The notes under the pieces are model-generated. The model saw nothing but the letters and a program-made list of their open reading frames with translations. It did not search any database and had not been told where the DNA came from. 8,139 nucleotides of DNA. It comes from Actinomycetes bacterium (GTDB taxonomy: Bacteria > Actinomycetota > Acidimicrobiia > Acidimicrobiales > Acidimicrobiaceae). Numbering within the stretch: position 1 is the first letter of the stretch; the number at the start of each line of letters is the position of its first letter. Where the stretch lies: contig JAKAOC010000088.1 of assembly GCA_021823385.1 (NCBI GenBank), forward strand, positions 1 through 8,139, in the 5' to 3' direction. Shown piece after piece: positions 1 through 8,139 of this stretch. The translations under genes were made by a program, and so were the position numbers.

Positions 1-7
1 AAAGACA

Positions 8-1699
8 GTGCAAGAGCGGCCCAAGGGGCCACGTCATGATCCGGACCGGGTGATACACGCGCCAAAGGGCACGGAGCTCTCCTGTGCCAACTGGCAGATC
101 GAGGCCGCTTACCGCATGATCCAGAACAACCTCGATCCCCAGGTTGCCGAACATCCCTCCGATCTGGTCGTCTACGGCGGCATTGGGAGGGCGGCCCGCA
201 CATGGGAGTGTTACGACGAGATACTCGCCTCGCTCCGGCGCCTCCAGCCCGATCAGACCCTGTTGGTGCAAAGCGGCAAGCCGGTTGGCATCTTCCGCAC
301 CCATGCGGACGCGCCGCGAGTGCTCATCGCCAATTCCAACATCGTCGCTCACTGGTCCAACTGGGACTACTTTGCGGAACTCGACCGCAAGGGGTTGATG
401 ATGTACGGCCAGATGACCGCCGGGAGCTGGATCTACATCGGCAGCCAGGGAATCGTTCAGGGCACTTACGAGACCTTCTACGCCATGGCCAACCAGCACT
501 TCGGGGGGGACGCCTCCGGAAGGTGGATCCTCACCGCCGGGCTAGGAGGCATGGGTGGTGCCCAGCCTCTGGCGGCCACCATGGCGGGCTTCTCGATGCT
601 CGCCATCGAGTGCGACCCCTCCCGTATCGAGATGCGTCTGCAGAGCGGATACCTTGACACCGAGGCCCACAGCCTGGAGGAGGCGCTGGCGGTCATCAAC
701 CGCGCCCACGAGCAGGGCAGGGCGGTCTCGGTGGCGGTGCTCGGCAACGCGGCGGACGTGATCAAGGAAATCTACGAAGCAGGGATACGCCCCGACGCAG
801 TGACCGACCAAACCAGTGCGCACGACCAGCTGCACGGCTACCTTCCCCAGGGATGGGACCTGGCCAAGTGGCGCAACATGCAGGCCGAGGACCCGCAAGC
901 CGTCATTGCGGCGGCCAGGCGGTCCATCGCCGAGCACGTCGAGTACATGGTCCGATTCGCCGACGAAGGTATCCCCACCGTCGACTACGGCAACAACATC
1001 CGCCAGGTCGCCTTCGAGATGGGCGTGCAGCGGGCTTTCTCGTTCCCCGGCTTCGTGCCCGCATACATCCGTCCCCTCTTCTGCCAGGGATACGGCCCGT
1101 TCCGCTGGGTCGCCCTCTCCGGCGATCCCGAGGACATCTACCGGACGGACGAAAAGGTGAAGGAGCTCATCCCGGACGATCCGCACCTGCACCACTGGCT
1201 GGACATGGCCCGCGATCGCATTCACTTCCAGGGGCTTCCCGCCCGAATCTGCTGGGTGGGGGTGAAGGATCGCTACCGCCTGGGACTTGCCTTCAACGAG
1301 ATGGTGCGCCGAGGCGAGTTGAAGGCACCGATCGTGATAGGACGAGACCACCTCGACACCGGCTCGGTCGCGAGCCCGAACCGCGAGACCGAGGCGATGG
1401 CAGACGGCTCCGACGCCGTAGCCGACTGGCCACTCCTGAACGCGATGCTGAACGTCGCGGGTGGAGCCACTTGGGTCTCCATGCATCACGGAGGAGGCGT
1501 CGGCATTGGATTCAGCCAGCACTCCGGGGTGGTCATAGTCTGCGACGGCAGCGAGGCAGCCGACAGGCGCCTGGAGCGTGTGCTCTTCAACGACCCCGCC
1601 ACCGGGGTTATGCGCCACGCCGATGCGGGCTATGACCTCGCGATCCAGACCGCCCAGCAGGCCGGCATCGACCTGCCAATGCTCCGGGGAAGGCAGTGA
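8..1699 (+). CDS. hutU: Urocanate hydratase (urocanase)
   Basis: Second enzyme of histidine breakdown: it hydrates urocanate to 4-imidazolone-5-propionate in the cytoplasm, using tightly bound NAD+ as an electrophile. The 563-residue product has the full length usual for the family. Visible landmarks are the N-terminal [10 protein letters not shown] block (21-30), [17 protein letters not shown] (54-70), the glycine-rich NAD+ segment [17 protein letters not shown] (178-194), [10 protein letters not shown] (409-418) with Cys415 at the position of the family's conserved active-site cysteine, [18 protein letters not shown] (447-464) and [15 protein letters not shown] (493-507). The start is uncertain. 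GTG at 8 is the first start codon in view, the frame is open to the left edge and too little upstream sequence is present to see a ribosome site, but family proteins usually begin only about 20 residues before the GTELSC block, so little can be missing. It overlaps hutI by four bases (GTGA), which indicates one operon and translational coupling. Confidence 0.97.
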
Positions 1700-2946
1700 C
1701 CGGACCATCGCTGCTCCTTCGGCACGCCGCCATAGGTGACACCACGCCCGATTCGACCTTCGTCCATCGTCGCGGCCAGGCGATCCACATCCGAGACGGG
1801 CTCATCGCCTGGTACGGCCCGGAGGCGGAGCTCCCCGCCGGCCTGGTTTCGGACGAAGAAATCGACCTGGAGGGGCGGCTCGTCACCCCGGGGTTGATCG
1901 ACTGCCACACACACCTTGTCTACGCGGGCAAGCGCGTAGCCGACTTCGTCGAACGCCTGGGCGGCACGCGCTACGAGGAGATCGCAGGCGGAGGCGGTGG
2001 GATCGCCTCGACCGTTGCCGCGACACGGGCAGCCGACGAGGAGGCCCTCTTCGAGGGAGCCAGGGCGCGCCTGGAGAGAATGTCAGGCCACGGCGCGACC
2101 ACAGTCGAGGTCAAGTCCGGCTACGGCCTGGACGCCGACAGTGAAGAGAAGATCCTACGAGTCGCCCGGCGCCTCGGGGCCACCGGCATCGCCGAGGTAC
2201 GCACCACGTTCCTGGGGGCACATGCCATACCGCCCGGCTACCAGCGGTCCAAGCAGGACTACCTCCGGGAGATGGCTGAGGAGGTGCTCCCCCGCCTTGC
2301 CTCCGAGGGGTTGGTGGACGCGGTCGACGCCTTCTGCGAGGAAATCGCCTTCAGCGCCGAGGAGCTGGAGAGCTACTACATGGCCGCCAAAAGGCTAGGG
2401 CTGCCAGTAAAGGCGCACCTTGACCAGCTTACGGAAACCGGAGGCGGCGCCCTTCTCGCCCGTATGGGAGCGGCAAGCGCCGATCACCTCGAATACTCTG
2501 GCACCGAGACCATCGCTGAGCTGGCCGGCGCGGGCACGGTGGCGGTGCTCCTGCCTGGCGCCTACTACTTCCTTCGCGAGGGCCGAGCCCCCGACGTCGC
2601 CGCCCTGAGAGCCGCGCGGGTGCCGATAGCCGTGGCCACCGACCACAATCCCGGCACCTCGCCGCTGGAAAGCCTCCCCCTGGCAATGAACATGGCCTGC
2701 CTGCTTTTCGCACTCACTCCAGCCGAGGCGCTTAGAGGAACCACAGCCAATGCCGCGCGCGCCCTCGGGCTCGACGACCGCGGCAGCATCACCGACGGAC
2801 TCAGGGCGGACATGGCGGTGTGGGACGTGGACAGCCCTGCGGAGCTCTGTTACAACATTGGCTTCAGCCCCCTGCACTCGACCTACGTGAAAGGAGTCAT
2901 GCGCCGTGAGGATTCCCGCCGCACAGACCCGAATGAGCGGACGTGA
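1696..2946 (+). CDS. hutI: Imidazolonepropionase
   Basis: Third step of histidine catabolism: it hydrolyses 4-imidazolone-5-propionate to N-formimino-L-glutamate. It is a cytoplasmic metal-dependent enzyme of the amidohydrolase superfamily. The 416 residues match family length. A small N-terminal beta domain leads into [17 protein letters not shown] (64-80), where His71 and His73 are the metal pair. [10 protein letters not shown] (138-147), [13 protein letters not shown] (170-182), VKAHLDQ (238-244, ligand His241), SADHLEYSG (261-269) and [11 protein letters not shown] (313-323, ligand Asp316) complete the active site, all intact by comparison with characterised HutI proteins. The GTG start lies inside the hutU stop (GTGA), preceded by a purine-rich GGGGAAGG at 1686-1693. 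The 3' end overlaps hutG by 41 bases. Confidence 0.97.
2890..2896 (+). promoter_or_regulatory. Ribosome binding site of hutG, inside hutI
   Basis: AAAGGAG, nine bases before the GTG at 2906 and lying within the hutI coding sequence. It is what decides the hutG start: the only nearby alternative, ATG at 2933, has no purine-rich sequence in front of it. The ATG at 2899 is in the hutI frame, not the hutG frame. Confidence 0.6.
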
Positions 2947-3856
2947 CGACTCGGCCGAAGGGCCTGACGCCGTTCGGCTTCATCAGCGATCAATCCCCAC
3001 CGACGATGGAGCGGAGCTTGCACCGGGCAGCGCCTTGATCGGCTTCGCCTGCGACGCTGGGGTGGTGCGCAACCACGGCCGACCAGGCGCCGCAGGTGGA
3101 CCCGCCGCTTTGCGGGCCCAACTTGGCGGGTTAGCCGCGCACCTTTCCCACCCTCTCTATGATGCCGGGGACGTCGCCTGCGTCGGGGACGGGCTCGAGC
3201 AGGCCCAAGGGGAACTGTCCGCTGCAGTCGCGACCCTCATCGGGAACGGCCACCGGCCGGTGGTGCTGGGAGGGGGTCACGAGATGGCCTGGGGATCATA
3301 TCTCGGCATCCGTTCCGCCTTGCAGGCCAAGGGGGAGCCCATGGACAGGTTGGCGGTGGTTAACATCGACGCGCATTTCGACCTGCGCTCCTCGGACCGG
3401 CCCACCTCCGGCACCCCATTCCGCCAGATGGCCGACTTGTCCCTGTCAGACAGTGCGCCCTTCCACTACTTTTGCCTAGGCGTCTCCGAAGCGGCCAACA
3501 CCGACGCCCTTTTCCGCACCGCACACGAGATCGGCGCCACCTACCTCACCGACCTGCAGATGCAGGAACTGCCACGCGAGCTGCTCGAGGAGATCGCCGA
3601 ACGCTTCGAACACATCTACTTGACGGTCGACCTGGATGCCTTACCCTCCTCGGCAATGCCGGCGGTTTCGGCTCCGGCCGCCCTGGGAGTGCCGGTGGCA
3701 GTGGTACTGGAGTGCATCCGCATGTTGCGCCACTCGCGACGGCTAATACTGTCGGAGATCGCAGAATTGAACCCGTCCTTCGACGTCACAAATAACGCCG
3801 CCAAGCTCGCCGCACGAGTCGCCTACGAGATGATCGGCGATGGCACGGCTCGTTAG
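2906..3856 (+). CDS. hutG: Formimidoylglutamase, arginase/ureohydrolase family
   Basis: Last step of the short histidine pathway: it hydrolyses N-formimino-L-glutamate to L-glutamate and formamide with a two-manganese centre. At 316 residues it is the usual size for the ureohydrolase family. All six metal ligands are visible: His125 in LGGGHEMAWGSY (121-132), Asp155, His157 and Asp159 in NIDAHFDLR (153-161), and Asp242 and Asp244 in LTVDLDALPSS (239-249). SGTPFRQM (168-175) and the PAVSAPAALGVP stretch (252-263) resemble HutG rather than arginase or agmatinase, and the operon position after hutU-hutI supports this. The GTG start at 2906 is chosen from the AAAGGAG upstream; the first 40 residues are poorly conserved. 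It overlaps hutI by 41 bases in another frame. Agmatinase or another guanidino hydrolase is less likely. The pathway ends in formamide rather than in formylglutamate through HutF and the HutG deacylase. Confidence 0.93.
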   Translation: MRIPAAQTRMSGRDDSAEGPDAVRLHQRSIPTDDGAELAPGSALIGFACDAGVVRNHGRPGAAGGPAALRAQLGGLAAHLSHPLYDAGDVACVGDGLEQAQGELSAAVATLIGNGHRPVVLGGGHEMAWGSYLGIRSALQAKGEPMDRLAVVNIDAHFDLRSSDRPTSGTPFRQMADLSLSDSAPFHYFCLGVSEAANTDALFRTAHEIGATYLTDLQMQELPRELLEEIAERFEHIYLTVDLDALPSSAMPAVSAPAALGVPVAVVLECIRMLRHSRRLILSEIAELNPSFDVTNNAAKLAARVAYEMIGDGTAR

Positions 3857-4335: not shown

Positions 4336-4923
4336 CTACAGCTTCGCGCGCTCAAGCTCAGCTCTGAAGATCTCAGCAAGCTCTTCCCTGTACAAAACAA
4401 AATGCACGTCCGCTATTTCTTCCACTTTTCTAAGTCCAGAAATAGCACCTTGTATTGCCGCGCGGCAGGCGGTAGCCGCTGGCCAGCCGTAGGCACCTGC
4501 GCCAATCAGAGGGAACGCAATGGATTGCACGCCCAGCCCATCGGCCAGGAGCAGGGAACGCTGGTAACACATGGTAAGCACGCCGAATTGGTCGTCGGCG
4601 TGGTAGACAGGACCAACAGTGTGGATCACCCAGCGGCACCGCAGATTGCCGCCCGTGGTGGCCACTGCATAACCGGCTGGGAGGCCGTCCGGGTACTCGG
4701 TGCGCCGTTTCTCTATGCACTCTGAAAGGATTGAGGGACCGCCATGGCCGTGGATAGCGCCGTCCACCCCTCCCCCGCCCATCAGGGAGCTGTTCGCCGC
4801 GTTGACAATCACGTCGGTGCGCTGCTGCACGATGTCACCAACTTCTATGACGAAAGAGGGCGTGCTCATGTCCAACCCCGGGGCCACCGTAGCTTCTCGC
4901 TCATAGATCCTTGCCTCGCACAT
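4336..4923 (-). CDS. Macro-domain protein, probable ADP-ribose-adduct hydrolase (MacroD-like)
   Basis: A single macro domain filling almost the whole 195-residue product. The family binds ADP-ribose, and MacroD-type members remove ADP-ribose from proteins or deacetylate O-acetyl-ADP-ribose in the cytoplasm. Visible motifs are EVGDIVQQRTDVIVNAANSS (27-46), where Asp30 of GDI is the expected adenine contact, then LMGGGGVDGAIH (47-58), the catalytic-loop signature of hydrolytic MacroD proteins, then CRWVIHTVGPV (96-106) and AFPLIGAGAYGWP (136-148), the diphosphate-binding loop. The latter reads IGAGAYGWP where many relatives have ISTGVYGFP. Two starts are possible: ATG at 4923, only 22 bases after the glnD stop, or ATG at 4869 (Met19, MSTPSF), which fits the typical N-terminus better and has GGGG upstream. 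The first 18 residues match no part of the domain. Same strand and short spacing suggest co-transcription with glnD. The true substrate cannot be read from sequence. Confidence 0.9.
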   Translation of the reverse strand: MCEARIYEREATVAPGLDMSTPSFVIEVGDIVQQRTDVIVNAANSSLMGGGGVDGAIHGHGGPSILSECIEKRRTEYPDGLPAGYAVATTGGNLRCRWVIHTVGPVYHADDQFGVLTMCYQRSLLLADGLGVQSIAFPLIGAGAYGWPAATACRAAIQGAISGLRKVEEIADVHFVLYREELAEIFRAELERAKL

Positions 4924-4945
4924 CCACCGCGGCGGGCGGCCCGCC

Positions 4946-7297
4946 TCAGCACACGCCTCCCGACTCCTCCCCGAGCGCCCTCTCCAGCTCAGCCTTGACG
5001 TCGAGCACGGCTAGGGGCTCGACGATAGCGTCTCCGTCCGAGCCAGTCACATAAAAGGTGTCGACTACGTCGTCTCCTAGAGTCAGCACTTTGGCATGCA
5101 CAATATCCAGGCCGTACCTGGCAAAGATGCACGTCAACCTATGAAGGAGACCCACTGAATCCGGAGCGCACACCTCAAAGACGGTGGCGCGCACGGACGC
5201 GTCTTCGTGTATCGTCACCCGAGGTGTAATCGCGGCCGAAGCGGCCACCTTTCGCCTCCGCGAGTTGGACAATGCACGCTCAGCCAGCCTCTGCTCTAGC
5301 TGCACTCCGTCAGCGAGACTATTACGCAGCTCAGCCTCGAAGCGCTGCCACCGAATCTCCTTGCCGTAGGGCGCAATAACCCGGAAACGCTCAATCGCCA
5401 CTCCGGACTCGGAGAACGCGTCCGCCTCCACGATGCTCAAGCCCAGCAAAGATAGAGTCCCAGTCACGCGAGCGAACAATCCGAGGCGGTCAGGGGCCAC
5501 CACCCACCCCAAGTCGCCGTTGGCCTCTACCAACAGGTCGCCGTCAAATTCGCCGATGAGCGTGCGCTCGAACTCCCCCGGGAATTCGGGTTCTGCGGGA
5601 ACGCCCTCTCCTTGCAGGTAGGCAAGCGTCAGTTCGCAGAGCCGGTCTATCAGGCTCTCCTTCCAGGTCGACCAAGCCGCCGGGCCGGTCGCACGACCGT
5701 CCGCCTCGGCCAGCACTTGGAGTAGCTCCAAAGTTGTGGCGTCCACCACTCGTTCGGCAACCATCTGGATGGTCTTGCGATCGGCGATGTCCCGCCTCGT
5801 CGCTGTGTCAGGGAGCAGAAGATGGTGCCGAACCAGACGCACGACCACCTCCACGTCCGCCTTTCCAAGTCCCATCCGATCAGCTATCGCCCGTGCAAGT
5901 TCCGCACCGGACTCGGAATGGTCGCCGCTCGCCCCTTTCCCTATGTCGTGCAACAATGCCCCCACGACGAGCAGGTCCGGCCGCTTCACCTCGCGCCTAA
6001 GCTCGCCTGCCTCGACCGCCGCCTCGATCAGGTGGCGGTCCACCGTGTAGGTGTGGTAGGCGTTGCGTTGAGGACGATACCTGACAAGCCTCCACTCGGG
6101 TATCACCTTGTCCAAGAGGCCGTAGTGATCCAGCCGTTCCATCATCTCAATCGAATCGCGCCCGTGCGAGAGAAGCGAAACCAGGGCGGCGAAAGTTCCC
6201 GGCGCCCAAGACTCTTCGAGCGCAGGCAATCGATCAGCCAGCATCTCCAGCGTGCCGGAAGAAAGCCTCGCCCCAACCGATAGAGAAAGCGCAGCAAGAG
6301 TAATAACCGCTTGGGCGTCTAAGGCAGGCAGTGCCCACGCAGCGAGGCTAAGCTGCCCCGCCTGCACGTGGAGGGAACCCGGGGGCCAATCCCGTCGATC
6401 GATCGCGCGCGGACGTGAGCGGGCGCGATTTGTAGGCGCGAGCATCTCCTCCAACGCTCTCGAGACGAACCGCCCCGTCTCCGAGACCCTCGCCATCAAG
6501 TCGTCCGCGTCGGCGTAGCCCGCCGCCTCAGCCACCCAGTCCTGGTCCTGAAGCAGGAGGCGATTCTGCGCCCGGTTCGCGCGAGCTTGGACCAGGTTCC
6601 TAATACGAAGGAGGAATTCCTTGTGATCGGAAAGCACTTCCAGGCCGGCGGTACGCTCACGGTCGAAGCGCTGAAGATGTGAAAGGTTCAGAACATCACG
6701 CAAGCCCCCGTGAGCCTCCTTGAGATCCGGCTCAAGCAGGAACGCGAGTTCTCCAGACTCGAGCCGGCGCTGTTCGGACTGTGTCCGAAAAATGCTGCGG
6801 TAGTGTTCAAGGCGCGACTTGAAGGTTCCTTCCACCCGCTCCCGGAGCGCGTCCAGGAGAGAGGCGGAGCCAAAGGCCAACCTGGCATCCAGCATCCCGA
6901 TCAGCACACGGGGATCCGCCGAGGCAGTTTGCATCGCCTGCGAGATCGTCCTGACCGAATAGTCAAGCGCGACCCCGGAGTCCCAAACCGGATACCAAAT
7001 AGTTTCGGTTATGCGGCTGACGTCCAGGCGCGGCCGATGCAAGAGAAGGACGTCCATGTCCGAGTAGGGGCCCATCTCCCTACGCCCGTAACCTCCTAGC
7101 GCCAGCAGGGCGACTCCGTTCTCGCCATCAGCCAATTCGGCAAGGAAGTCGTCACACACCGACGCCATCGCCACCATCAGCTCGGTGCGCGACCAGTCTT
7201 GGGCAAGCAATGCACCTCGTAGCGCGAGGAAGCGCTCCACCCGCGCATCGGGTTTCTTCGACATCCCACCTCCCATATCTATCCCCCGCGTCGCCAT
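4946..7297 (-). CDS. glnD: [Protein-PII] nucleotidylyltransferase / nucleotidyl-removing enzyme GlnD
   Basis: Senses glutamine and attaches or removes a nucleotide on PII proteins (GlnB/GlnK), thereby setting glutamine synthetase activity and nitrogen gene expression. Enterobacteria use UMP; characterised actinobacterial GlnD enzymes adenylylate GlnK, so AMP is possible here. Domain order over 783 residues: nucleotidyltransferase with GGYGRREMGPYSDMDVLLL (68-86; Asp80 and Asp82 as metal ligands) and LKEAHGGLRD (192-201); HD phosphohydrolase with NAYHTYTVDRH (412-422), LLHDIGKG (448-455), DHSE (459-462) and HH (491-492); then two ACT domains, about 598-665 (APDRLGLFARVTG) and 706-775 (APDSVGLLHRLTC), which bind glutamine. 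All four parts look complete; E. coli GlnD is about 890 residues. The start is ambiguous. ATG 7297 has no ribosome site, ATG 7276 (Met8) follows GGGGG, and ATG 7264 (Met12) follows GGGAGGTGGG, the best match. No glnB/glnK or amt is adjacent. Confidence 0.95.
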   Translation of the reverse strand: MATRGIDMGGGMSKKPDARVERFLALRGALLAQDWSRTELMVAMASVCDDFLAELADGENGVALLALGGYGRREMGPYSDMDVLLLHRPRLDVSRITETIWYPVWDSGVALDYSVRTISQAMQTASADPRVLIGMLDARLAFGSASLLDALRERVEGTFKSRLEHYRSIFRTQSEQRRLESGELAFLLEPDLKEAHGGLRDVLNLSHLQRFDRERTAGLEVLSDHKEFLLRIRNLVQARANRAQNRLLLQDQDWVAEAAGYADADDLMARVSETGRFVSRALEEMLAPTNRARSRPRAIDRRDWPPGSLHVQAGQLSLAAWALPALDAQAVITLAALSLSVGARLSSGTLEMLADRLPALEESWAPGTFAALVSLLSHGRDSIEMMERLDHYGLLDKVIPEWRLVRYRPQRNAYHTYTVDRHLIEAAVEAGELRREVKRPDLLVVGALLHDIGKGASGDHSESGAELARAIADRMGLGKADVEVVVRLVRHHLLLPDTATRRDIADRKTIQMVAERVVDATTLELLQVLAEADGRATGPAAWSTWKESLIDRLCELTLAYLQGEGVPAEPEFPGEFERTLIGEFDGDLLVEANGDLGWVVAPDRLGLFARVTGTLSLLGLSIVEADAFSESGVAIERFRVIAPYGKEIRWQRFEAELRNSLADGVQLEQRLAERALSNSRRRKVAASAAITPRVTIHEDASVRATVFEVCAPDSVGLLHRLTCIFARYGLDIVHAKVLTLGDDVVDTFYVTGSDGDAIVEPLAVLDVKAELERALGEESGGVC

Positions 7298-7419
7298 ATT
7301 GCGTCGGTAGTGCGCGCACGCGGGGTCCCGACCCGCACGGCTTCGTCCGACTCCACTAAGCGCACCCAGCCATCCCCGATACTCTCGATTCTTGCATCAT
7401 CGACCAACTCGGCTGTCAT
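7279..7419 (-). CDS. Possible small ORF just upstream of glnD (46 residues, unrecognised)
   Basis: An ATG-started frame whose TAG stop (7279-7281) sits two bases before the glnD Met8 codon at 7276, a spacing that would allow translational coupling if glnD starts there. The product begins MTAELVDDARIESIGDGWVR and is acidic at first and arginine-rich at the end. About two thirds of its third codon positions are G or C by hand count. There is no good ribosome site: the nearest GGAG is about 16 bases from the ATG. I recognise no family. In the same frame, upstream of a single TAG at 7441-7443, lies another open stretch back to about 7602, so this could be the tail of a broken gene or simply chance. 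Confidence 0.2.
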   Translation of the reverse strand: MTAELVDDARIESIGDGWVRLVESDEAVRVGTPRARTTDAIWRRGG

Positions 7420-7764
7420 CGAGTCTTTGCTCGATCTCCGCTACTTAACCTCGGACCTGCAGCCACAGTACGGGGCTTCCAGCACATACGAGACCGAAAT
7501 CCTGTCCACCGCATCGGTTGCGAGAGTGCTGCGAACGTCCTCCGCGATGACGCGCCCTCTGATCGCGCCTACCGGCTTCCATCTTCCCCCTTCATTCCCC
7601 AAGGATCACCGACAACAATGCCGACCGACCTCCAGCCCTGTGCAGCTTCACGCCCCCGAACGATCGCAGAAGCGACCCGCAGAGGGTCGCAGGCCAACTC
7701 GGGAATGCGGCGCCGCATCCATACTCTCCAGCTCCTCCCTGCTCCTGATGCGCAAGCGGACCAC
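7298..7764. other. Region between glnD and the TnpB 3' end; no firm gene
   Basis: No confident gene, tRNA or promoter was found. The plus strand has an open frame of 171 residues (7310-7825), rich in Ser, Thr, Arg and Pro and with no family likeness; I take it as non-coding. The minus strand has two short open pieces in one frame (about 7602-7441 and 7419-7279) split by a TAG. The region should contain the glnD promoter, but I see no good -35/-10 pair on the minus strand. Wherever the TnpB-linked element ends, the bases just beyond that end on the minus strand would be the position of a TnpB guide segment. Confidence 0.4.
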
Positions 7765-7792
7765 CTTGTCGGAATTTTGGCGATCGGACAAG
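7765..7792. repeat. Inverted repeat, 6-pair stem, beyond the TnpB stop
   Basis: CTTGTC at 7765-7770 and GACAAG at 7787-7792 form a perfect six-pair stem around a 16-base loop. It lies about 50 bases past the TnpB stop in the direction of its transcription. It may be part of the element's end or a weak terminator-like hairpin, but no T-tract follows on either strand. Confidence 0.4.
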
Positions 7793-7812
7793 CGGCACCA
7801 AAGGCATACCGT

Positions 7813-7849
7813 TGCAGCCGAGTGAGCAATAGTGAGCACTCACGCTGCA
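7813..7849. repeat. Hairpin spanning the TnpB stop codon
   Basis: The outer arms TGCAGC (7813-7818) and GCTGCA (7844-7849) pair over six bases and the inner arms GAGTG (7820-7824) and CACTC (7837-7841) over five. A 1-by-2 internal mismatch separates them and a 12-base loop closes the structure. The TGA stop of TnpB (7842-7840) lies in the right arm. Subterminal hairpins after tnpB are known right-end recognition structures in IS200/IS605 elements, so this may mark the right end of the element; that reading is inference. Confidence 0.5.
7821..7840. repeat. Two tandem 10-base units, AGTGAGCAAT and AGTGAGCACT
   Basis: The two adjacent units differ at one base and share AGTGAGCA. They sit inside the stop-codon hairpin, so the stem has two possible registers: the left GAGTG can pair with the CACTC at 7837-7841, while the second unit alone also forms the small palindrome GTGAGCACTCAC at 7832-7843. 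Confidence 0.55.
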
Positions 7850-8139
7850 CCCCTTCTCGGGGTTCCGCCCCTGTTCCCAGGATTGGCTCCGGCCTCACCG
7901 GGAACGGCCTTGCTGAACTGCAAAGGTCTAAGGTCCCCTCCTCCGGTGCCGGATAGTCCGGCGTCGGAGCCGAGTCCCCCGCCGCTGCCGGCGGGACTGC
8001 CGGGCTTCGGGGCCGTGGCTCCAACTGAGCCACAAGTGGCATGACCCGGCCAGTCGCGGAGGTTCAATGCTGCGTTGACGTCCCGGTCTACCAACTCGCC
8101 GGTTGTGGCACAGAGGAGTTGTATGGCCAGCTTCCTCGG
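7840..8139 (-). CDS. tnpB: TnpB/OrfB-type RNA-guided nuclease, C-terminal part only (runs off the right edge)
   Basis: The last 99 residues of an IS200/IS605 or IS607 associated TnpB, an RNA-guided DNA nuclease related to Cas12. The frame is open to the right edge, so the start, the bulk of the RuvC domain and the first zinc-ribbon cysteines are outside the window. ELVDRDVNAALNLRDWPGH (residues 15-33 of this piece) contains the DRDxNAAxN motif that carries the third RuvC aspartate. Just before it stands LCATTGE, where relatives usually have C-x-x-C-G; the second cysteine is replaced by threonine, which suggests a damaged or divergent zinc ribbon. ATCGSVGATAP (34-44) resembles tails common in actinobacterial copies, from memory of the family. 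Residues 46-69 are mostly Gly, Ser and Ala and probably unstructured. No tnpA is in view. Whether the whole gene is intact cannot be judged. Confidence 0.85.
   Translation of the reverse strand, partial: PRKLAIQLLCATTGELVDRDVNAALNLRDWPGHATCGSVGATAPKPGSPAGSGGGLGSDAGLSGTGGGDLRPLQFSKAVPGEAGANPGNRGGTPRRGAA
7941..7969. repeat. 29-base near-perfect palindrome within the TnpB tail
   Basis: CTCCG (7941-7945) pairs with CGGAG (7965-7969), and GCCGGA (7948-7953) with TCCGGC (7957-7962), around the three-base loop TAG. The two-base steps between blocks (GT on each side) form G-T wobbles if read as plus-strand RNA, and a 2-by-2 A/C mismatch if read as minus-strand RNA. Confidence 0.65.
7973..7998. repeat. 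Hairpin with 9-pair stem and a 2-base bulge within the TnpB tail
   Basis: AGTCCCCCGCC (7973-7983) pairs with GGCGGGACT (7990-7998) around the loop GCTGCC, with two extra C on the left arm bulged out. Only three bases separate it from the 29-base palindrome at 7941-7969. Confidence 0.6.
8015..8033. repeat. Perfect 7-pair hairpin within the TnpB tail
   Basis: GTGGCTC (8015-8021) and GAGCCAC (8027-8033) are exact inverted repeats around the five-base loop CAACT. It is the stem nearest the conserved TnpB domain in the chain of stems. Confidence 0.6.

Follow-up and report, generated by a model that had tools for sequence, protein, structure and literature searches.

What are the inverted repeats at the far end of this stretch of DNA for? 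The window, meaning the whole stretch of 8,139 nucleotides analysed here, ends within a minus-strand gene, and a reading made from the sequence alone had proposed that a chain of stems at 7765..8033, over the 3' end of that gene, is the guide-RNA scaffold of a TnpB system. In such systems, as excerpts of PMC8612924 describe, the RNA directs a cut at the donor site once the element has left it, and the element could thereby be restored. We hold with high confidence that the stems form the scaffold of a right-end guide RNA (reRNA) belonging to a TnpB element of the IS607 family, lying on the tnpB strand over the last ~64 codons of the gene. From covariation we infer that the scaffold is an RNA; it would presumably be transcribed, processed, and used as a guide for cutting. 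The sequence-only reading needs correcting in that the element belongs to the IS607 family and the proteins of this copy are decayed.

The element and its decayed proteins

Sequence comparison identified the window as the minus strand of contig C26 of genome G000, with differences at 2 positions (8036 and 7767) over the 2887 bases compared; the placement is stated as 2614-10752, and the contig is listed with 10295 bases. The closest relatives with names (L010-L019) are MAG contigs labeled Actinomycetes bacterium or Acidimicrobiaceae bacterium. On C26, the tnpB frame (L006 1411-2913) encodes 500 amino acids from the first listed start, and its last 300 bases lie in the window. The gene had been called tnpB from its letters, and database models agree: the whole C26 frame matches NCBIfam NF038280 (IS607_TnpB) at 373.1 bits, above the cut-off of 350 despite a 63-residue gap, and is also matched by Pfam PF07282 and PF01385.

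Alignment to relatives L012, L014, and L091 places the 63-residue gap after VKAGLDAK; from TnpB structures, we take the lost residues to be part of the REC region. The first 55 residues of the C26 protein align with the IS607 transposase model (187 positions) over 131-187 at 44.4 bits, below the cut-off of 110, so that a C-terminal remnant is all that this copy retains of a serine-recombinase TnpA; residues 2-59 match the solved IS607 transposase of IS1535 (6dgb). In L012 and L091, a separate tnpA-like frame is followed by a full tnpB, and the intact L012 proteins score 205.3 bits as IS607 TnpA (cut-off, 110) and 543.3 bits as IS607 TnpB (cut-off, 350). The L012 TnpB matches the solved structures 8h1j and 8bf8, the former over residues 51-428, while the C26 protein matches 8h1j only from residue 149. 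Since it carries a TnpA remnant and a TnpB short of 63 residues, we read the window element as a relic in which most of tnpA has gone, the remnant has been fused in frame to tnpB, and part of tnpB has been lost. With those 63 residues missing from the nuclease, loss of function is the likelier outcome, and this copy probably no longer cuts by itself.

Nuclease-dead TnpB-like repressors have lost the RuvC catalytic residues; this identity was considered for the C26 protein and rejected, as the aligned D, E, and D columns, which we take to be the RuvC catalytic triad, are all kept. At residue 249, RuvC-I reads GVDPG in the C26 protein versus GVDLG in L012, L014, and L091. DPG versus D-Phi-G serves as a signature in PMC10711439; GVDPG here may be simple decay.

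The histidine degradation genes hutU, hutI, and hutG are consecutive with overlapping ends at window positions 2-3856, and glnD followed by a Macro-domain gene occupies 4336-7297 on the minus strand. On contig C26, the relic is flanked by glnD on one side and on the other by L006 193-666, presumably a P-II-like gene. The interval from glnD to the relic contains a pair of oppositely oriented open frames (7310-7822 and 7569-8042), which gave no Pfam match and are possibly decayed sequence.

A conserved fold over the tnpB tail

The crowding of inverted repeats at the 3' end is readily seen. Repeats at 8015-8021/8027-8033 and 7978-7984/7989-7995 pair at 7 of 7 positions each, that at 7941-7953/7957-7969 pairs at 85% of 13, and that at 7765-7773/7784-7792 pairs at 89% of 9; the first three (8015-8033, 7978-7995, and 7941-7969) are the ones that stand nearly back to back. 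The hairpin at 7765-7792 falls beyond the element and needs base 7767, at which contig C26 differs; it was dropped from further consideration. Folding no better than shuffled controls would have spoken against the proposal, but the minus-strand RNA of 7765-8033 reaches −132.9 kcal/mol where dinucleotide shuffles average −114.8 (z, −3.10; none of 200 as good), and the scaffold trimmed to 7809-8035 is also more stable than its controls (z, −3.42; 1 of 200 as good).

A consensus fold was derived from an alignment of 11 loci (A4), leaving aside three distant sequences of alignment A3 in which the middle has no alignment (L092, L093, and L111), the 94 bases of contig C313, which are cut by the contig end, and the near-identical C26. 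The fold comprises 59 pairs in 10 helices (Table 1). Both sides have changed with pairing kept in 24 of these pairs, or 60 of 643 cells, which bears out the expectation that relatives would conserve the stems through compensatory changes. Pairing is found in 93.9% of the 643 cells, compared with 84.4% in shuffled alignments and 31-45% with partners slid, a control that favors the structure in that the structure was derived from the same alignment on which it was counted. The covariation score is 0.320 versus 0.129 for shuffled alignments, and none of 500 shuffles reached any of five covariation measures. A covariance model built from these data, R1, matches 7809-8035 at 220.6 bits, the window being among the sequences from which it was built.

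The clearest compensation of all helices is in helix 1, while in helix 2, three of four pairs are invariant and the remaining one is compensated in one locus. The stems first noticed are thus real, but what the relatives support is a multibranched fold more than a chain of hairpins. A candidate 3-pair pseudoknot between the scaffold end and the helix 1 loop has 90.5% of its cells paired, where a slide of +3 gives 2 pairs at 100%; it shows no covariation, and one of its three pairs is broken in 4 of 14 sequences.

Table 1. Features at the right end of the element, in window positions
Feature	Positions	Strand	Remarks
3' end of the tnpB frame, with DRDVNAALNLRDWPG and a Gly/Ser/Ala-rich tail	7840..8139	-	Enters from beyond the window
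Putative reRNA (omega RNA) scaffold	7809..8033	-	Consensus of 59 pairs, of which the window copy keeps 57; ~225 nt
Helix 1, hairpin GTGGCTC-AGTTG-GAGCCAC	8015..8033	-	Both sides altered in 5 of 7 pairs; 100% of cells paired; 11 loci
Helix 2, GGCC 8014-8011 with GGCC 7894-7891	7891..8014	-	Closes the multibranch loop around helices 3-8
Helices 3-5, 8010-8007/7973-7970, 8004-8003/7980-7979, 7992-7989/7984-7981	7970..8010	-	
Helix 6, 7969-7957/7953-7941	7941..7969	-	Both sides altered in 5 of 12 pairs
Helices 7 and 8 with the conserved TAAGACC motif (window, TTAGACC, 7931-7925)	7900..7938	-	
Helix 9, hairpin ACCCCGAGAAGGGGT	7849..7863	-	0 pairs changed on both sides
Helix 10, GCAGCGTGAG/CTCGGCTGC	7814..7848	-	Includes the tnpB stop codon
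Element right end, CAACGG	7809..7814	-	Last conserved block; empty site of a relative
Position of a 20-nt guide, should the RNA be made; sequence of the flanking chromosome, TATGCCTTTGGTGCCGCTTG	7789..7808	-	Right end and published IS607 reRNAs

Given the decay of the proteins, the scaffold of this copy may itself be a former one, dead and drifting. This is compatible with the reRNA reading, and we consider it somewhat the better bet for the window copy. It accords with the TnpA remnant and the shortened TnpB, as well as with four RNA changes private to the window: one of them hits TAAGACC, a motif that all 10 other rows of A4 and all 7 rows of alignment A5 preserve (L093, among the three distant A3 rows, reads TAAGCCC), and another, at 7947, unpairs one pair of helix 6. 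Pair 7932/7906 is broken in the window and in L091. Pulling the other way, 57 of the 59 pairs remain, a number exceeded only by L011 with 59 among the 11 loci (L014 and L017 have 3 gap cells each in consensus pairs). Four private changes are also a small excess over the 0-3 found in eight closer loci, counts lowered for L014 and L017 by their near-identity over the RNA, and the two distant loci have 10 and 14; the columns taken for the RuvC triad are intact.

Energy alone does not permit a choice of strand, because the plus strand of 7809-8035 folds well too (z, −4.82; 0 of 200 shuffles as good). The strand assignment rests on the orientation of the gene, the location of the stems where the element ends on the right, and more frequent G-U than A-C cells (29 versus 18), a count that leans to the strand used for structure prediction. 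The equally good folding of the plus strand, together with the position of the stems at the right end of a mobile element, would suit transposon-end DNA signals, that is, cruciforms or binding sites for TnpA. IS607 elements use a serine recombinase and not the hairpin-binding Y1 transposase, which counts against such signals, as does the G-U excess. The geometry also fits them poorly: the helices are nested, helix 2 covers 124 bases, and helix 1 starts ~225 bases short of the end. Excerpts of the literature point both ways, IS200/IS605 and IS607 elements being described as typically having subterminal palindromic ends (PMC8612924) and IS607 TnpA as assembling on element ends (PMC6188088), but IS607 elements also as lacking terminal inverted repeats (PMC6188088). 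On balance, we regard DNA signals as highly improbable and retain the reRNA scaffold.

Changes by codon position were compared between the tail and the sequence before it in 7 of the 11 loci (L014, L017, L091, and L015 have another tail and were left out; L018 has a shorter core). From the RuvC part, taken as up to 106 codons before the tail, to the tail itself, differences per codon drop from 0.296 to 0.163 at third positions and alter little at first positions (0.169 to 0.147), in pairwise counts whose pairs of loci are nonindependent. L014 and L017 keep the RNA, with a different reading frame at the end of the tail (EPREGVQHE for GTPRRGAA). The slower third positions would fit selection on the RNA, as had been suggested for this Gly/Ser/Ala-rich filler. 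The tail peptide appears to be likewise constrained and not freely drifting, because its amino-acid identity (0.793) is close to that of the RuvC part (0.780). That similar identity, and a Gly/Ser/Ala-rich tail open to the same stop region in all 11 loci, could suggest that a GC-rich, repetitive coding sequence gives rise to the stems incidentally, a reading we consider barely credible in the face of folding that beats dinucleotide shuffles, the 24 compensated pairs, third positions slower than in the RuvC part, and a frame shifted over a kept RNA.

Right end, probable guide position, and known systems

Several lines of evidence place the right end of the element at CAACGG. In an alignment of 13 rows, of which two (the window and C26) are nearly identical, the final G of CAACGG, at window position 7809, is the last column without variation; past it, no column is invariant and one is nearly so. 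Among the 11 relatives that reach this region in a pairwise profile search, 7 stop at query positions 332-335, two stop at 342-345, and two continue. A natural empty site, L147, was found for the ~2.27-kb element of L091: the sequences of L091 1-368 and 2645-4050 adjoin there with 2 bases between. The junction carries GG, and the aligned GG with the next bases sets the end of the L091 element at CAACGG; in a second locus, L164, the two flanks are likewise present and the element is missing. The GG at CAACGG is the probable IS607 crossover dinucleotide, and insertion at GG without target duplication agrees for the one relative with a natural empty site. Crossover between GG dinucleotides is described for IS607 in PMC10711439. 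The left end of the window copy was not found on contig C26, where homology to relatives starts inside tnpA.

With the right end at 7809, the guide of the window copy would begin at 7808 and run downward, and 7765-7808 is flank outside the element. The original proposal of a scaffold at 7765..8033 therefore holds for 7809..8033, and its first 44 positions fall away. Its placement of the RNA, on the strand and in the location where TnpB guide RNAs are made, stands: a conserved structure lies over the 3' end of tnpB, in sense to the gene, and extends as far as the boundary of the element. In 6 of 9 loci for which the left region was printed (L014 has another flank, and no left end was placed in L092 or L093), a G-rich sequence such as GGGGG, GAGGG, or TGGGG precedes the left end as placed by eye. 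These sequences appear to resemble the published IS607 target motifs, which are given as AGGAG or GAGGG in excerpts of PMC11061315 and as GGG in those of PMC10711439.

For intact relatives, these elements suggest the following sequence of events. The tnpB transcript, or a shorter right-end RNA, would fold into the multibranched scaffold, and TnpB would bind it. The 16-20 nt of flank past CAACGG would then act as the guide, and TnpB would cut the emptied donor site beside the G-rich motif, with the result that the element is retained.

IS607 reRNAs are already published, and the finding is one to be expected from published TnpB biology. As far as the excerpts of the respective papers go, ISXfa1 (PMC10711439) and ISFba1/RAGATH-18 (PMC11061315) share with the window element an IS607 TnpB, a right-end RNA extending into the flank, and a G-rich motif, and ISXfa1 additionally has a GG crossover at the element end. 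The scaffolds are of similar size (187 nt in ISFba1 versus ~225 nt in the window), but the window scaffold overlaps tnpB, whereas the ISFba1 RNA is said there to begin 13 nt downstream of it (PMC11061315). Of the pseudoknots described in those excerpts of PMC10711439 and PMC11061315, the window has as counterpart only the candidate without covariation. In the ISDra2 system (IS200/IS605; PMC8612924), the RNA likewise corresponds to the 3' end of tnpB plus the right end, and ~16 nt of flank serve as its guide; that system uses a Y1 transposase and a TTGAT target motif, in contrast to the serine recombinase and GG of the window element. The protein, too, is homologous to solved TnpB structures (8h1j and 8bf8). 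An excerpt of PMC10278001 describes omega RNA as processed from tnpB mRNA, which gives the scaffold the strand and transcript unit of tnpB, as in the window.

An Rfam search assigned no family: the window contains 0 matches at gathering scores, and RAGATH-18 is absent from the 3 matches at E ≤ 5 in 7600-8139, the best of which (E, 0.32) reaches 19.1 bits against a gathering score of 94.9. By sequence, then, the window scaffold appears to differ from the published IS607 scaffolds with which it was compared, in that it has no RAGATH-18 match. A terminator or promoter as the source of the stems was also considered and rejected, with 0 of each type found in 7700-8139. The analysis thus provides a covariation-supported fold for an reRNA family of Actinomycetota IS607 elements in a stretch without an Rfam match, and, as the natural empty site fixes the 3' boundary of the reRNA, this branch becomes directly testable in its scaffold, guide start, and target motif.

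Relatives of the scaffold and elements without tnpB

Across 396 genomes of the phylum, R1 found 11 matches in 9 genomes (E up to 0.01, stricter filters), while a protein search found TnpB relatives in 53 genomes; the scaffold thus covers only part of TnpB diversity. Six of the 11 matches fall at the 3' end of a TnpB relative, and the model includes two of these six (the genome of the window and L091). In the stretch read, four others, L145 among them, show no TnpB match, and one shows a weak match. No scaffold relative was matched on plasmids. A DNA search of the 396 genomes with the window sequence matched 10, and beyond its own genome only pieces of 27-56 bases were found.

The genome of the window holds traces of a second copy. 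Contig C208 carries at its end (6-260; L141) the N-terminal part of a second, related IS607-type TnpB, and contig C313 (1-94; L009) begins with a right end 73% identical to that of the window. The two may be the ends of one second element split by assembly.

Short elements that share an RNA end were also observed. At L145 740-1210 (minus strand), an insert of ~400 bp interrupts a gene that we assume to be aminotransferase-like, and pieces of this insert match 26 places in its own genome and at least 40 in a relative (40 of 47 candidates scored). Seven short elements (L145 and L196-L201) have both ends in common, with 302-428 bases between the shared end motifs and longest open stretches of at most 112 codons, too short for tnpB; a TnpA-like fragment is present in at least two of them. 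Two 1.9-kb TnpB elements (L202 and L203) share the RNA end with the short ones. When the RNA core is aligned across these nine elements, compensation is seen in 6 of 12 pairs, and 97.2% of cells are paired versus 42-54% when slid; two of the five shuffle measures are less clear (17 of 500 for both-sided changes and 392 of 500 for pair types). Several of the short elements are scored by R1, weakly, at 5.8-32.3 bits. From these sequence features, the seven short elements are possible guide-RNA-carrying mini-elements. Among the literature matches listed, which cover few subscription journals, we recognized no description of guide-carrying mini-elements without TnpB.

Because the relic keeps its pairs after the loss to TnpB, and because ~400-bp elements without tnpB carry such an RNA, one may ask whether guides are shared in trans. 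The IS607 guide RNA could be a unit of its own, kept and spreading without its nuclease, with another copy supplying the TnpB that loads it in trans, an idea that we put forward as a long shot. For the RNA of the window, that TnpB would perhaps be encoded by the element with ends on C208 and C313. If true, trans loading would add guides, such that one nuclease protects many insertions.

Two further loci show the RNA away from a recognizable tnpB. At L143 1347-1461 (minus strand), a shortened right-end RNA ending in CAACGG is divergent to a tnpA-like gene (1498-1897, plus strand), with no tnpB match within the 3 kb read. At L142 1006-1127 (minus strand), a 122-nt R1 match stands in a stretch without a TnpB match; by eye, its 3' part is similar to L111 of the same genome.
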